Below, piece after piece: positions 57,031-63,344 of a stretch of 64,000 bases of DNA (positions within the stretch are counted from its first letter, which is position 1; the number at the start of each line of letters is the position of its first letter). The notes beneath the pieces are model-generated. The model was not told the DNA's origin, ran no database searches, and saw nothing but the letters and a program-made list of their open reading frames with translations. Position numbers and translations under genes: made by a program. The stretch lies in contig JANXYV010000154.1 in NCBI GenBank assembly GCA_025355875.1, forward strand, positions 1 to 64,000, written 5' to 3'. Source of the DNA: Prolixibacteraceae bacterium (GTDB taxonomy: Bacteria; Bacteroidota; Bacteroidia; Bacteroidales; Prolixibacteraceae).

Positions 57031-57363
57031 CTATTCTGATGTTTTTAAAGCAACCGAAGAATGGTTCTTTAATTTCATTTCTATCGCTTCGTAATCACCC
57101 AAGTAATGAGCCATCATGCTTTTCCACACTGGTCCGTGATTGGGATAATGAAAATGAAGCAGTTCGTGTACGATTACATAAATGCCAATTTCCTTATCAA
57201 TACTGAGCAATTCATCGTTGAAATTAAGATTGCCCTTGGTGCTGCATGATGCCCATTTGTTCGACATTGGACGAAGTGCCAGCGCCTGGACATTTAATTC
57301 AAGTTTTTTTGCCCACCGATAAACTTCCTCTTTAAAATCGGCTTTATCTTTCCAGTGTTTCAT
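57031..57363 (-). CDS. Short DUF45/YgjP-like M48-type metallopeptidase linked to Type I RM
   Basis: VIVHELLHFHYPNHGPVWKSMMAHYLGDY (HExxH plus downstream H); overlaps the end of hsdR by 4 nt. Confidence 0.85.
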   Translation of the reverse strand: MKHWKDKADFKEEVYRWAKKLELNVQALALRPMSNKWASCSTKGNLNFNDELLSIDKEIGIYVIVHELLHFHYPNHGPVWKSMMAHYLGDYEAIEMKLKNHSSVALKTSE

Positions 57364-60344
57364 TTCTTAATAGTTTCATTCAGTCGCGTGAACAAATCGT
57401 CAACAAATGATTTTACCTTATCCATGTCAATCTCATGATCTATTTTCAGGATTGAAGTGTAAACTTTATTGCGCAGTTCACGCTGGTCGGCATCTCTGGA
57501 AGCCCAATAAGGATGTGCAACAAAGGCAGTCCGGATGGCTGTAGCAATAGCATCAGGATCGCTGAAACTTTGTTCGCGAAGTTTCTTGAAAACATAGTAA
57601 GTGATGTCGTCGAATTGCTTTTCGGCTTGTTCTTTTTCTTCCGCCAAACGCTGCTCAATCAATCTTTCAAGTTCTGCAAGTACTTCCTGCGTTGTATCCT
57701 GCTTGTCTTCATAGCTGTCAAGTGCATCTTCGGCCTTTTTCTTCATCGAAATCAGGTTAGGGTCACAGGGATCTTGGGTGGTATATTTTTCGATGCTTTT
57801 CACCAGATTGATAACCCGCGTATCGTCGCCCTTTGCGTTGTCCCTTTTAATTTGTTCGAGAGTATCAGCATCGATGGTTATTTCCTTTTCGATGGCACCA
57901 ATGGCATTGATGGAGGAATGTTTCTTTATCAGTTCTTCTGTTTTTGCCAGAAATTCCCGGTCTGCTCCTTTCCCTTTTTTCAGGTCGAATGCTTTTTTGA
58001 CGATGGCAACAATGTTTGAAATGATGATATACTTCTGAATGTATGGAACCAGAAACGCATCAGGAGAAATGATCTCATAAAGCAGCTCTATCCGTTTATA
58101 GAACCGGTATAATTCATGTCGCTTCCCTTTGTCCTTGAACTCCTGAACGATCAGATTTACCGTTTTATCATTAAAGCTGGTACCAATCAGTGCGATGTAA
58201 ATTTCGCCTTCGGTTTCCATAAGCTTTTGGAAATCATCTTTCAAAATCTGAATATCGCGAATAATGGCATTGATCTCATCACTGTCGAACGAGAGCGCTT
58301 TTTCAAGCTTGTCGAAAATACCTATGAAATCGAGGACGAAACCATATTTCTTTTCGAGGTCGAGCGCTTCATCATAATATGGCCGGTTGACCCGTGCTAC
58401 AGCTTGTAGCAAAGTATGATCGCGCATGGGTTTGTCGAGATACATGGCATACAGATTTGGAGCGTCAAACCCGGTAAGCAGCTTTTCGGTAACAATCAGA
58501 ATTTTAGGAAATGTATCGCGCTTTGAGAACTCTTTTCGAAGGTTTTTCTCTTCTTTGTCGGTGATGTAAAATTCCTTTAGCTTTTGTGTGTCGTTGTGAT
58601 ATTCGGAATAAACCGGAACACTGTATTCGGGAGGCAGATATTTATCCAGCGCGTTTTTATACAAGGCGCAAGCCTCCCGGTCAACAGTAACAAGAAGGGC
58701 TTTGTAGCCAAGCTGTTCAACGTTTCTCAGATAATGTTCAGCCACGTATTTTGCAATGTCGTCAACACGTTTTTCGCCTTTAAGAAATGATTTGAACCCG
58801 ATTTTATCCAGAATTTTATTGAGCTCGTGGATTTCTGTAATCCCTTCGGTTTCGGCCAGCGCAAGAAATTCTGTTTCGAGTTGTTCGGCATTGACAAGCA
58901 GATCGTTGGGCGCTAAAGCATAATTCAATGGCAGGGTGGTTTTATCTTCAATCGATTCCTTCATGGAATATTTATGCAGATAGCCTTTGGGATCGGGATT
59001 ATCCTGATCGTTGAACACTTTAAAAGTTCCTTTGCCTTTGGCAGTATTATCGATGGGTGTGCCGGTGAATCCGATTAATGTAGCCTTTGGAAGTGTTGCC
59101 ATTAAATAAGTACCCATGTCACCGTTCGTGGTTCGGTGTGCTTCGTCAATAAGTACAAAGATGTTTTCACGGGTATTGAGCGCTTTATCGGTTTTATCGA
59201 ATTTGTGAAGCATACAAATAAGAATTCCCCTGAAATCTTCCGAAAGAAATTTATCAAGCTGAATGCGTGAACTAACCACTTTTACATTTTCAACTTTTAA
59301 TGATTCGATGTTGCGGGCCATCTGGTCTTCGAGTTCATTACGGTCGAGTAATACCAAGACCGTAGGTTTGCTGGCTCGCTGGTCTTTATATACCTTTTCG
59401 GCAACTTTAATAATGGTGAATGTTTTACCGCTGCCTTGTGTATGCCATATCAGGCCACGCTTGCGCGAATCGGCAACAAGTCGTGTGACAATGAGTTCAA
59501 CGGCTTCGGTCTGATGCTGCTTCAGAATGTACTTGTTCAGTACATCGTCTTTCAACTGAAAAAGAATATAATCTTTCAGGAAAGCCAGAACTGCTTCGGG
59601 ATGGCAAAACTCTTTAACCTTGGCTTCGAGGTTCCCGATTTCTTCGCTTTTCCATTCAAAAATGTTCCGGTTTTTTAAATTCCAGGTTACCCCATAATGA
59701 AAACCCAACGAATCAACGGAGGTGAACAATTGTTCGGGCATCATCATTTCGGGCGTTTCGTCGTGGTAGCGGCGCAATTGATTGATGCCTATTGCAATGG
59801 CTTCGTCTTTGGTCGCATTTTTACACTCAATAATCAATACCGGAATGCCGTTGATTAAGAAAACAATATCGGCACGGTTGGCAAAACGGCCATTGTTATA
59901 CCAGTATTCTTCGGTAACGTGGTAAGCATTGTTTTCAGGATGTTCGTAATCGACAAGCACCAGCGAATCTTCCTTATTTCGGGCAGCATTGAACCAATTT
60001 TTTTGATTGCGCAAATACAACAACATATCGTTGTTGCCATGAATGGTTGCAGGCAGATTGTTGAGCCTTCGGCAGAGTTCTTCCTCTGTTTCGGAATAAC
60101 CCTTGTTAAATTCTACTGCTTTTGAGAAAAGGATATGATTAAAAAACAACGAAGCATTTTTTGCCTGTTCCTTTTGCGAACCGGAACTTGTATCGAACAA
60201 GCGTAATTCTTCAGCTTGTTTTTGAGGCACAAAAATCCAGGCAGTATTGATACCTTTTATGAGCGGTGGATTGCTCACATAGTTCAGTATAGGTTCCTGA
60301 ACAGTTCCAGCTTCGGTACTTGTTTTGTAGGCTTTTGCACTCAT
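57360..60344 (-). CDS. hsdR: Type I restriction endonuclease subunit R
   Basis: RADIVFLINGIPVLIIECK nuclease motif; GLIWHTQGSGKTFTI Walker A; VLIDEAHR; GFTGTPID; VNRPYYDE. Confidence 0.95.
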   Translation of the reverse strand: MSAKAYKTSTEAGTVQEPILNYVSNPPLIKGINTAWIFVPQKQAEELRLFDTSSGSQKEQAKNASLFFNHILFSKAVEFNKGYSETEEELCRRLNNLPATIHGNNDMLLYLRNQKNWFNAARNKEDSLVLVDYEHPENNAYHVTEEYWYNNGRFANRADIVFLINGIPVLIIECKNATKDEAIAIGINQLRRYHDETPEMMMPEQLFTSVDSLGFHYGVTWNLKNRNIFEWKSEEIGNLEAKVKEFCHPEAVLAFLKDYILFQLKDDVLNKYILKQHQTEAVELIVTRLVADSRKRGLIWHTQGSGKTFTIIKVAEKVYKDQRASKPTVLVLLDRNELEDQMARNIESLKVENVKVVSSRIQLDKFLSEDFRGILICMLHKFDKTDKALNTRENIFVLIDEAHRTTNGDMGTYLMATLPKATLIGFTGTPIDNTAKGKGTFKVFNDQDNPDPKGYLHKYSMKESIEDKTTLPLNYALAPNDLLVNAEQLETEFLALAETEGITEIHELNKILDKIGFKSFLKGEKRVDDIAKYVAEHYLRNVEQLGYKALLVTVDREACALYKNALDKYLPPEYSVPVYSEYHNDTQKLKEFYITDKEEKNLRKEFSKRDTFPKILIVTEKLLTGFDAPNLYAMYLDKPMRDHTLLQAVARVNRPYYDEALDLEKKYGFVLDFIGIFDKLEKALSFDSDEINAIIRDIQILKDDFQKLMETEGEIYIALIGTSFNDKTVNLIVQEFKDKGKRHELYRFYKRIELLYEIISPDAFLVPYIQKYIIISNIVAIVKKAFDLKKGKGADREFLAKTEELIKKHSSINAIGAIEKEITIDADTLEQIKRDNAKGDDTRVINLVKSIEKYTTQDPCDPNLISMKKKAEDALDSYEDKQDTTQEVLAELERLIEQRLAEEKEQAEKQFDDITYYVFKKLREQSFSDPDAIATAIRTAFVAHPYWASRDADQRELRNKVYTSILKIDHEIDMDKVKSFVDDLFTRLNETIKK

Positions 60345-60385
60345 ACCTTTTCAAGTTTAGGTTATTCGTAGGTGAAACAATTTAT

Positions 60386-60515
60386 TGTCGTATTTTATCC
60401 TTGACTCACCCCACGTCCGCTAGCGGCCGTCCCCCCTCTCTACACGTAGAGAGGGGAAAAGCGAGCGTTGCGAGCTTGGGGTGAGTCTATAAAACAACAA
60501 ATTTGAAATACGACA
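60386..60515. repeat. Nested-palindrome REP/MITE-like element between hsdS and hsdR
   Basis: Outer arms tgtcgtattt/aaatacgaca, middle arms gactcacccca/tggggtgagtc, inner hairpin cccctctctac-ac-gtagagagggg, plus ccgctagcgg palindrome. Confidence 0.8.
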
Positions 60516-60516
60516 T

Positions 60517-61710
60517 TTATTCATTCTTTAAACTTAGATCAAATTCAAGCTGATCAACTCTAATGCCGCCAGTCATTAAATCGTTTAGCAAAGTTTTAAA
60601 AAGCGATTCGTAAACTTCCTTCTTTTTTAGGGAAACTGATATCTTATTTGTAAGAGCATTTAAAGATTTGCTAATGAATTCTTGCTCTGCCATGGGCGCT
60701 AGTGGGAATAAACATTCTTTAATATTTGAGTCTGAAACTGCCGGATAGCTTGCACCTTTTTGCATTTCTTCCATTTTTCTCAAAATCATGTTGGATTGCA
60801 GATAGTAATACAAAAAATCAGAAATGATCTTTTTTGCATCTGGTCTTAAAACACAATATCCTGTGCTGCAAATTTCATCATTTAACTCTTTGGGAACAAT
60901 CGCAATTCTTTGTAAAGTAGGTCTAACTGTAGCAAAAAGAATATCATTTTCAAGCATGACCTTTCTTGCTCTTGAAGGCGCATCCTTACCTTTGACTGAT
61001 GAAAATGTTGTAATAGAAAATGATTGGTTTGAAACACCTGAAACATCAACATATTTAAACATTTCATCAGGTTTTCCACTTGGATTTCTTTGTGTAGATT
61101 TGATTAAAACACTGCCAATTTCAACTGCCAACCAGCTCCCTGGCATCATCCCAATTTCAGTTTCTTTGAGTTTTTCGCCTTTGGCGCCTTGCGAAAACAA
61201 TTGGTGCAGCAGCGATTTCTTTAATGCCTGGGTGGTATCAATAATCTGTTGCTGCTTTTCGATGGCATTTTGAAGCGTGGAAAGAATGTATGCAATTTTA
61301 AGCTGCTCGATAGGTGGCACTTTAAATACAGGTAAATTTGAAAATAGATTACGATTAAGAGTAGGTACAGATACACCTGTTGCATGTTTATCCAGCTTAA
61401 GATGAGATAAATAGTAAAATATAAATTTGGGATTATTGTCTTTGAAATCGACAACAGCCAACACTGTATTATGAGCCCAAAATTTATTTTCGTAATAATG
61501 AACAACACCACATGAACCACTTCTCCCAATAGTAACGCCAGGACCTCTATAATTTGATGAGTCGTGAAAACCTATTATCCCATTAGATCCGGCAACAGGA
61601 ATATCTCCTTTTTTGAATTTGCTTTTTGTTAAATCTTTCCCTCTTCTGAGAATTACAAGATCGTCAAAACGTATTTCTTTCCATGTGCTAACTGTCGAAA
61701 ATTCTTTCAT
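60517..61710 (-). CDS. hsdS: Type I restriction-modification specificity subunit S
   Basis: Two TRD/helix repeats: WKEIRFDDLVILRRGKDLT..PPIEQLKIAYILSTLQNAIEKQQQIIDTTQALKKSLLHQLF and PGSWLAVEIGSVL..LAPMAEQEFISKSLNALTNKI. Confidence 0.93.
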   Translation of the reverse strand: MKEFSTVSTWKEIRFDDLVILRRGKDLTKSKFKKGDIPVAGSNGIIGFHDSSNYRGPGVTIGRSGSCGVVHYYENKFWAHNTVLAVVDFKDNNPKFIFYYLSHLKLDKHATGVSVPTLNRNLFSNLPVFKVPPIEQLKIAYILSTLQNAIEKQQQIIDTTQALKKSLLHQLFSQGAKGEKLKETEIGMMPGSWLAVEIGSVLIKSTQRNPSGKPDEMFKYVDVSGVSNQSFSITTFSSVKGKDAPSRARKVMLENDILFATVRPTLQRIAIVPKELNDEICSTGYCVLRPDAKKIISDFLYYYLQSNMILRKMEEMQKGASYPAVSDSNIKECLFPLAPMAEQEFISKSLNALTNKISVSLKKKEVYESLFKTLLNDLMTGGIRVDQLEFDLSLKNE

Positions 61711-61712
61711 TG

Positions 61713-63344
61713 TTAAAACCCCAATTTAGTTAACACTTCATTTACCTCTGCATCAATTGCTTTTGCTTCTTTTTCGAGCGTTCGCAGGCGGGTGACCAAT
61801 TCGGGAACGGGCAATAAAACTTCCTGCAAACCACTGGTAATGTATTTGGTAGGGCTTATGTTGTAATCGTTTTTCTCAATTGTTGCCTTTTCAATAATGG
61901 CTGCGCTGCCCATGCCCTCGCCTAGGGAAAGGGTATCGCTTTCGGGGTTTTCAGTGGTATAAAAATGCAGGTACGCATTGGCAACCAGCAACTGGTTTAC
62001 TTCGTCAACAAAGTTCTTCGGATTGCCTTTCGTAAAACAACGGCTGGCATTTAAAAGGATTAGTTTGTTTTTCAGGTGTTCCGGCTTACTGGTATTAAAA
62101 AACAACACGATGCCCGGAGCCGTAGTGTTGTAGAATAAATTTTCGGGTAAATAAATTACCCCTTCAATAAAATCGTTGTCGATAAACCATTTGCGGATTA
62201 CTTTTTCGGCGCTGCGCGAATCGCCACCGCTGCCCCGGCTTGCAGCGCCCGTGTCGAGAATCACAGCCGCGCGGCCGTTGGGTTGTTTTAAACTGGCCAG
62301 AATATGTTGCGCCCAACCCCAGTCGGCTGTATTTTTAGGTGGAATACGATCGCCAAAACGGGCATATTCATCTTTTTCGTAAACATCAGAATTGAAAACA
62401 TCCTGGTTCCACATCGGATTGGCAGTGATGCGGTCGAACTGGCGCAAGCCTTTGCCATCGGTGCTGTGAAATTTGGGATTGATCATGGTGTTGCCAATTT
62501 CAATCGTGCCTTCCATTTCGTGAATCACCATGTTCATGTTGGCCATCGCCCAGGTGGTAGGCAGCCATTCCTGTCCATAAATTTTCAGGCTTTCATAATC
62601 CGTTTTTCCTTCCAGTTTCATCTTTTCTTTCAGGATCAACTGAAGTTTTATGACCAAACCAGCCGAACCAACATTGGGGTCGTAACATTCCATCCCCGGA
62701 GCAGGATCGAGAATGCGGGCCATAATTAAGCCCACTTCTGTCGGGCTAAAGAACTCGCCAGCGCTTGAGCCGCCACCTTCGGCAAACTTACGGATGAGGT
62801 ATTCGTAACTTCGGCCAATAATATCCGGTTCCACGTCGAGCAAACCCAGTCGTTTTGAGCCAAGACGGTTGATGAGGTCCTGAATACGTTCATCCTCAAT
62901 TTCACGAACGCCGTGAGTAGTCTGGTTAAAATCAATGCGATTAACAATCCCGGAGAGTTTGGGATTGGCTTTGGCTATTTCGTGCAGTATATCGGTAACC
63001 TGCTGCCCGAGGCTTTTCTTATCGGTTGCATTCAACAACTTGATGCAATCCCAGGTTGGTTGTTTTTCTATATCTTCCGGGCGAAACGGAAGGTAAAAAC
63101 GCACCAGCGAATGATCTTTATCAAAAAGCTGCAATACCCGTTTACGACTTCCAAATTCATCAGCCATTTTATTTACTTCATCATCGAATACGTCGCACAA
63201 CCTTTTAACAAACACCAGGGGCAAAATGTAATCTTTGTATTTTGGAGCGTCAACCGGGCCGTGTATGGCGCAAGCGGCGTCCCACAACCATGTTTCGAGC
63301 GATTTATTTGGATCAACTACGGTTTCTTTTTTCTTTTTAGCCAT
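61713..63344 (-). CDS. hsdM: Type I restriction-modification DNA methyltransferase subunit M
   Basis: N-terminal helical SLETWLWDAACAIHGPVDAPKYKDYILPLVFVKRL; EFFSPTEVGLIMARIL; motif I-like YDPNVGSAG; motif IV-like ANPMWNQ. Confidence 0.93.
   Translation of the reverse strand: MAKKKKETVVDPNKSLETWLWDAACAIHGPVDAPKYKDYILPLVFVKRLCDVFDDEVNKMADEFGSRKRVLQLFDKDHSLVRFYLPFRPEDIEKQPTWDCIKLLNATDKKSLGQQVTDILHEIAKANPKLSGIVNRIDFNQTTHGVREIEDERIQDLINRLGSKRLGLLDVEPDIIGRSYEYLIRKFAEGGGSSAGEFFSPTEVGLIMARILDPAPGMECYDPNVGSAGLVIKLQLILKEKMKLEGKTDYESLKIYGQEWLPTTWAMANMNMVIHEMEGTIEIGNTMINPKFHSTDGKGLRQFDRITANPMWNQDVFNSDVYEKDEYARFGDRIPPKNTADWGWAQHILASLKQPNGRAAVILDTGAASRGSGGDSRSAEKVIRKWFIDNDFIEGVIYLPENLFYNTTAPGIVLFFNTSKPEHLKNKLILLNASRCFTKGNPKNFVDEVNQLLVANAYLHFYTTENPESDTLSLGEGMGSAAIIEKATIEKNDYNISPTKYITSGLQEVLLPVPELVTRLRTLEKEAKAIDAEVNEVLTKLGF

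Follow-up and report, generated by a model that had tools for sequence, protein, structure and literature searches.

A nested palindrome fills the gap between hsdS and hsdR in a Type I RM operon on the DNA analysed here (64,000 nucleotides from a Prolixibacteraceae genome, hereafter the window). The question that it raises is whether such a structure belongs to the operon, for instance as a hairpin that sets restriction against modification, or whether it is a repeat that came to lie there by insertion.

The element at the hsdS-hsdR junction

An earlier note on this DNA had described three nested inverted repeats within a minus-strand hsdM-hsdS-hsdR gene order. All three repeats are present at the positions claimed (Table 1), and the gene order is borne out by the coordinates and by Pfam; hsdS ends with its stop at 60517, hsdR starts at 60344, and the element fills the gap between them. 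When a 141-nt stretch of the mRNA (minus) strand was folded, we obtained -63 kcal/mol compared with -34.7 ± 3.7 kcal/mol for dinucleotide shuffles. Given a z-score of -7.6, with none of 200 shuffles as stable, the fold of the window copy is well past chance, in line with the strong mRNA hairpin that had been predicted ahead of hsdR. The window copy is also able to fold as one long hairpin. Further, the element reaches beyond what had been described, as its outer repeat is longer and two extra hairpins are present between its middle and innermost repeats. The ends of the element were set where similarity drops abruptly in the genus alignment and are uncertain by several bases. Comparison with other copies places the element at about 60366-60537, and the six terminal codons of hsdS and its stop are therefore element sequence. 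No match above the family gathering score was obtained with Rfam 15 anywhere in the window. Downstream of the element, the ygjP gene that adjoins hsdR in the window also lies beside most HsdR homologues in the phylum (L245-L270), and hsdR and ygjP form a conserved pair.

Table 1. Coordinates of the repeat element, its parts, and the surrounding genes in the window
Feature	Position	Strand	Remark
Whole repeat element, ~172 bp	60366..60537	.	Many copies in own genome and genus; aligned copies place boundary at TAAGT..
Outermost inverted repeat, TGTCGTATTT / AAATACGACA	60387-60396 / 60506-60515
Middle inverted repeat, GACTCACCCCA / TGGGGTGAGTC	60403-60413 / 60477-60487
Innermost inverted repeat, CCCCTCTCTAC / GTAGAGAGGGG	60433-60443 / 60446-60456
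Terminal inverted repeat, hsdR-side, short arm CGTAGGTGAAACAATTTATTGTCGTATTTT	60367..60396	+	Genus alignment
Terminal inverted repeat, hsdS-side, long arm AAATACGACATTTATTCATTCTTTAAACTTAG	60506..60537	+	Contains hsdS stop and last six codons (LSLKNE*)
Cloverleaf outer stem, 5' strand GACTCACCCC	60403..60412	+
Cloverleaf outer stem, 3' strand GGGGTGAGTC	60478..60487	+
Variable side hairpin ACGTCCGC-TA-GCGGCCGT	60413..60430	+
Constant central hairpin CCCCTCTCTACACGTAGAGAGGGG	60433..60456	+
Second variable side hairpin AAGCGAGCGTTGCGAGCTT	60459..60477	+	Imperfect in window copy
hsdM, Type I methylation subunit	61713..63344	-	Pfam N6_Mtase, HsdM_N
hsdS, Type I specificity subunit	60517..61710	-	Pfam Methylase_S; 3' end within repeat element
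hsdR, Type I restriction subunit, downstream	57360..60344	-	Pfam HSDR_N, SWI2_SNF2, T1R_D3-like
YgjP-like metallopeptidase gene, after hsdR	57031..57363	-	Pfam PF01863; adjoins HsdR homologues in other genomes

HsdR homologues from outside the genus, which came from a whole-genome search, are encoded at loci that lack the element. At the locus of the closest homologue (55% identity, L245), hsdS and hsdR are separated by 9 bp, and at others the two genes overlap; conserved presence of the element at all homologous RM loci, which had been named as a refutation of the earlier idea, was not seen. The best HsdR relative in the genus reaches only 31% identity; the genus has no close RM orthologue, and no exact empty site was obtained for the window copy. 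A peptide-pattern search of the genome contigs for relatives of the window HsdR likewise gave none. The proposed count of genomic copies revealed the element to be multicopy, with about ten BLAST places in its own genome (5.18 Mb), some of which represent both strands of one palindromic copy. The claim that the element is inserted inside the Type I RM operon therefore holds, because it is a dispersed repeat and homologous RM loci are without it. We conclude that the palindrome is not native to the RM operon and is one copy of a dispersed repeat of ~170 bp.

We note that, in two other Bacteroidota (L248 and L253), a DUF559 gene and a different palindrome (ACACACCCC..GGGATGTGT) lie between hsdS and hsdR. 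There, the insertion falls at HsdS ..MTGQIRVKD[IM]EF, near the same point of HsdS as in the window, where ..MTGGIRVDQLEFD is followed by LSLKNE*, and the junction therefore looks as if it has been hit independently.

The purposes that had been suggested for the hairpin, namely control of stoichiometry or a phase-variable site, found no support, as the same element lies beside unrelated genes genome-wide with no terminator-like bias, and nothing points to inversion or length variation. Among predicted ORFs, its placements are tandem in 52 cases, divergent in 11, and convergent in 9, and hence show no excess at convergent gene ends. A scan of 60200-60700 detected no intrinsic terminator (a GC-rich hairpin followed by a T-run) and no sigma-70-type promoter, the latter negative being weak because Bacteroidota use other promoter types. 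A native terminator or attenuator was rejected because there is no T-tract and no convergent bias and because homologous loci are without the element. The very stable mRNA-strand structure in the hsdS-hsdR gap does make partial attenuation or an mRNA processing site plausible, and hsdR may be subject to a partial polar effect; however, in view of the many unrelated loci that carry the same element, and of the same results from the scan, the gene ends, and the homologous RM loci, we regard it as quite improbable that the hairpin is a cis-regulatory one, kept by selection, by which hsdR expression is lowered relative to hsdM and hsdS.

Dispersal and conserved shape of the repeat

Of the 22 other genus genomes searched, 19 carry the element, and the number of matches in one genome reaches 35. 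Outside the genus it is essentially absent at the DNA level, except for one weak family member. The core pattern, consisting of the outer stem and the central hairpin, was found on more than 113 contigs across Bacteroidota, in taxa that include Prolixibacteraceae, Prevotellaceae, Chitinophagaceae, Mucilaginibacter, and Flavobacteriales; a single contig carries the label Chlorobiota. No exact match to the core pattern was present in viral contigs, and an origin from a phage or virus was rejected on this ground. As is expected of a repeat, two contigs of the window genome (C227 and C162; L408 and L409) end inside an element copy, and their upstream sequences are nearly identical.

The 92 distinct elements that we compared share a common plan, which comprises an outer stem, (GA)CTCACCCC/GGGGTGAG(TC), a left hairpin, a central hairpin, CCCTCTC..GAGAGGG, and a right hairpin. 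The sequences of the side arms are very diverse (for example, TCCGC-nn-GCGGA, GCATC-tgc-GATGC, ACACC-ttc-GGTGT, and AGACCGA..TCGGTCT), and their self-complementarity is kept. When 164 distinct side arms were folded alone, the mean energy was -6.9 kcal/mol compared with -2.9 kcal/mol for shuffled arms, and the longest perfect stem measured 5.5 bases compared with 3.2 bases, with 92 different stem sequences among the 164 arms. Pairing of left with right arms showed no gain within an element (-11.8) over pairing between elements (-14.0). Because the arms pair with themselves and the left and right arms of one element pair no better than those of different elements, the conserved shape is a four-way one, a cloverleaf, and a long simple hairpin was rejected as the conserved shape on the same evidence. 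The foot of the element is GACTCACCCC, and GTAG is confined to the tops of some central hairpins.

In genus copies, the element ends in imperfect terminal repeats of ~30 bp (TAAGTAAT..TGTCGTATTT), outside of which similarity is lost abruptly. Such ends, together with the lack of a gene of its own, would fit a MITE whose terminal inverted repeats are used by a conventional DDE transposase, but we hold this origin to be very unlikely. The cloverleaf core is phylum-wide, whereas the TGTCGTATTT terminal repeats occur mainly in genus copies; no target-site duplication was obvious by eye in the several genus copies inspected, for which no exact empty site was obtained; and no transposase with TAAGTAAT...TGTCGTATTT as its ends was encountered among the loci examined.

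DUF559 genes bracketed by the cloverleaf

While tandem copies of the element were being examined, a DUF559 gene was spotted between two of them, and, among all loci then collected, most of the DUF559 genes found adjoin the element. Seven DUF559 genes are bracketed by the same cloverleaf (L164, L177, L215, L241, L304, L334, and L343). Half-elements lie 17-125 bp upstream of all seven and, under a strict pattern, at most 100 bp downstream of all except L343, the downstream copy of which is slightly diverged and visible by eye outside the strict pattern. L344 covers the same place as L241, and the downstream copy there contains the stop codon of the DUF559 gene. In four genus genomes, the chance of two-sided bracketing was about 1e-5 to 1e-6 per gene. 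The seven bracketed proteins form one clade (support 87/89; 0 of 500 shuffles as clustered), and, in a 95-row DUF559 tree that was built quickly and leaves many forks without resolution, the motif label changes 7 times compared with 21.6 times when shuffled (0 of 500 as low). Related DUF559s outside the seven-gene set were seen by eye to have other palindromes alongside. Speaking against a match between cloverleaf and clade, part of the matching DUF559 clade has flanking palindromes of different sequence. We also note that tandem arrays or clusters of the element adjoin DUF559 genes at L147 (5144-5684, with a period of ~135 bp) and L304 (4168-5164).

Because part of the bracketed loci had been fetched via the element, DUF559 genes were also picked by protein only, blind to the repeat, either by Pfam score (L346-L375) or by closeness to the L304 protein (L376-L405). 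An exact repeat of at least 14 nt was shared by the flanks at 60% of the 57 usable loci picked in this way compared with 10% of 116 control ORFs, and the median length of the shared repeat was 18 nt compared with 8 nt for the controls (rank test p 1.5e-10). The flanks at these loci also folded more strongly than those of controls, modestly so, and the 7-mer CTCACCC/GGGTGAG was present in the flanks of 39% of closeness-picked and 28% of Pfam-picked DUF559 genes compared with 6% of controls.

Further, the genus genomes that contain a DUF559 of the matching clade (G005, G010, G012, G016, and G022) have 15-35 matches to the element, and the median for the other genus genomes is about 5 (one-sided p 8e-4), these numbers being BLAST matches and not curated copies. 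One exception is G018, with 27 matches and no matching DUF559 detected. No DUF559 of the matching clade was found in the window genome, and its copies thus look like relics or like copies driven in trans, although the assembly breaks inside element copies and may therefore lack a bracketed DUF559 gene, so that the absence is not certain.

Only two DUF559s were detected in this assembly, which belong to other clades and are both in frame inside larger genes. One occupies residues 232-338 of a valyl-tRNA synthetase (ValS), within tRNA-synt_1 (L406:1042-4140, contig C211), and the other occupies residues 872-977 of a Type ISP RM enzyme, where it splits Type_ISP_C (L407:6550-10074, contig C205); both units are bracketed by palindromes other than the window cloverleaf. 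Similar in-frame units occur in ValS of other genus genomes (L324 and L325), and one is present in an apparent isoleucyl-tRNA synthetase of G004 (L316). Among the Bacteroidota genomes sampled, 170 of 297 contain DUF559. Palindromes also adjoin, on at least one side, the DUF559 genes of plasmids from cyanobacteria, Sinorhizobium, and Azospirillum (L422-L427), and the partnership may therefore extend past Bacteroidota; at L426, the stretch that encodes DUF559 is part of a larger annotated gene.

The protein, which Pfam assigns to DUF559, is small and has a predicted Vsr/homing-endonuclease fold. In sequence searches, it matched 3hrl (1.2e-11), which is an 'endonuclease-like protein' of Neisseria; a weak match was to 3r3p (0.34), a mobile-intron protein. 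An AlphaFold2 model (pLDDT 89), when compared with known structures, matched 3hrl (5e-7), the homing endonuclease I-Bth0305I (3r3p; 1.3e-3), and, weakly, TnsA (0.04). In the DUF559 alignment, D60, E71, H77, and D84 are invariant and D73 is nearly so, a pattern of conservation consistent with a nuclease of the PD-(D/E)XK type. The Caulobacter DUF559 protein VsrA has a genetic link to DNA damage and a proposed role in mismatch repair, and some DUF559 relatives are treated as mismatch-repair (Vsr-like) enzymes, which is a different role from mobilisation (PMC12907096).

Alternatively, a Y1 (HUH tyrosine) transposase could mobilise the element as an ordinary repeat of the REP/RAYT type, in which case the link of the element to DUF559 would be secondary. 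Y1_Tnp genes are present in the window genome and in all 14 of the genus genomes searched, and the TnpA-REP genes of Bacteroidetes subclass 2.6 are reported to be flanked by 'atypical secondary structures' that are also found elsewhere in the genome (PMC6006769). However, none of 34 Y1_Tnp loci from the window genome and the genus had the cloverleaf in its flanks, whereas DUF559 genes have it in both flanks and co-vary with it in the tree. A RAYT-driven REP was rejected because these Y1 loci carry other palindromes (as several do) or none, and we judge this reading unlikely overall. Some genus Y1_Tnp (RAYT) genes have palindromes of their own nearby (GGCTTTAGCC, GACGGCAAAGGATA, and CCGTCACAT; L281-L283, L292, and others), so several nuclease-palindrome partnerships may coexist.

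Proposed mechanism and comparison with known systems

Overall, we consider it probable that the window element is a solo, non-autonomous copy of a DUF559-associated, cloverleaf-folding repeat family, inserted at the hsdS-hsdR junction. The pairing of cloverleaf and DUF559 suggests a previously undescribed kind of mobile element; a search of the open-licence literature found no description of a DUF559-repeat partnership, and one may exist elsewhere. The analysis establishes the repeat, its conserved shape, its lack at homologous RM loci, its bracketing of DUF559 genes, and its co-variation with them in the tree; binding, cutting, and mobilisation of the cloverleaf are candidate activities of DUF559. 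In the mechanism that we propose, the element inserted at the hsdS-hsdR junction and took the place of the hsdS 3' end. A DUF559 nuclease of the matching clade would recognise or nick the palindrome, probably in a single-stranded or extruded form, and repair or recombination would then copy the palindrome to new sites, with solo copies such as that in the window as non-autonomous products. Such an arrangement would resemble the REP/RAYT partnership but would be run by an enzyme of the Vsr/homing-endonuclease type. Against it, neither cutting nor movement was directly evident, and we found neither an exact empty site nor an obvious target-site duplication.

A wider reading, which we put forward tentatively and with slightly more doubt than conviction, is that DUF559 proteins may drive an as yet undescribed but widespread class of mobile elements, with clade-specific recognition of cloverleafs or palindromes, spread of solo repeats, and self-moving bracketed units that enter even essential genes in frame, such as that for valyl-tRNA synthetase. 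If this were true, DUF559, a large uncharacterised family, could be assigned a probable function, that of nuclease partner to dispersed palindromic repeats, and the in-frame units in ValS would represent an intein-like invasion of an essential gene with no splicing domain identified. Each DUF559 clade would then predict its own substrate from the palindromes that adjoin it, which would make concrete tests possible.

Among known repeats, the ERIC and RU elements of enterobacteria are intergenic imperfect palindromes of 100-200 bp and have been described as MITE-like (PMC2229807, PMC2759123). Going by their descriptions, they resemble the present element in these respects. To our knowledge, neither has a cloverleaf with swapped self-complementary arms or a DUF559 partner. 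The EDxHD homing endonucleases, both free-standing and intron-encoded, are similar in that the DUF559 model is structurally near the catalytic domain of one of them, I-Bth0305I, and in the proposed nuclease-driven spread of flanking DNA; here, however, no intron or intein was recognised and there is no extended DNA-binding domain, and the palindromes in the flanks also occur scattered on their own, apart from the gene. The palindromic elements of Rickettsia are repeats able to insert in frame in protein genes, as the other DUF559 palindromes have done in ValS and the Type ISP enzyme, but they differ in lineage and sequence, and we know of no nuclease gene linked to them.

The closest likeness is to REP/BIME and RAYT (the REPtron), which likewise consist of dispersed, mostly intergenic palindromes and a cognate small nuclease gene bracketed by copies, with enzyme clade and palindrome type co-varying. 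In contrast, the enzyme here is DUF559, with a PD-(D/E)XK, Vsr-like fold, and not a Y1 HUH tyrosine protein; the REP palindrome is 20-40 bp with a GT[AG]G foot, whereas the present element is a ~170-bp cloverleaf that has the foot GACTCACCCC and no GT[AG]G at its end; and a cognate Y1 gene is flanked by its repeat, whereas the genus Y1 genes are not flanked by the cloverleaf. The element thus fails two defining features of REP/RAYT (the Y1 partner and the GT[AG]G foot), and on paper its way of working appears similar. If the wider reading is true, DUF559 and its palindromes would represent a second, unrelated solution to a partnership of the REP/RAYT type, and many Bacteroidota palindromes would be accounted for.
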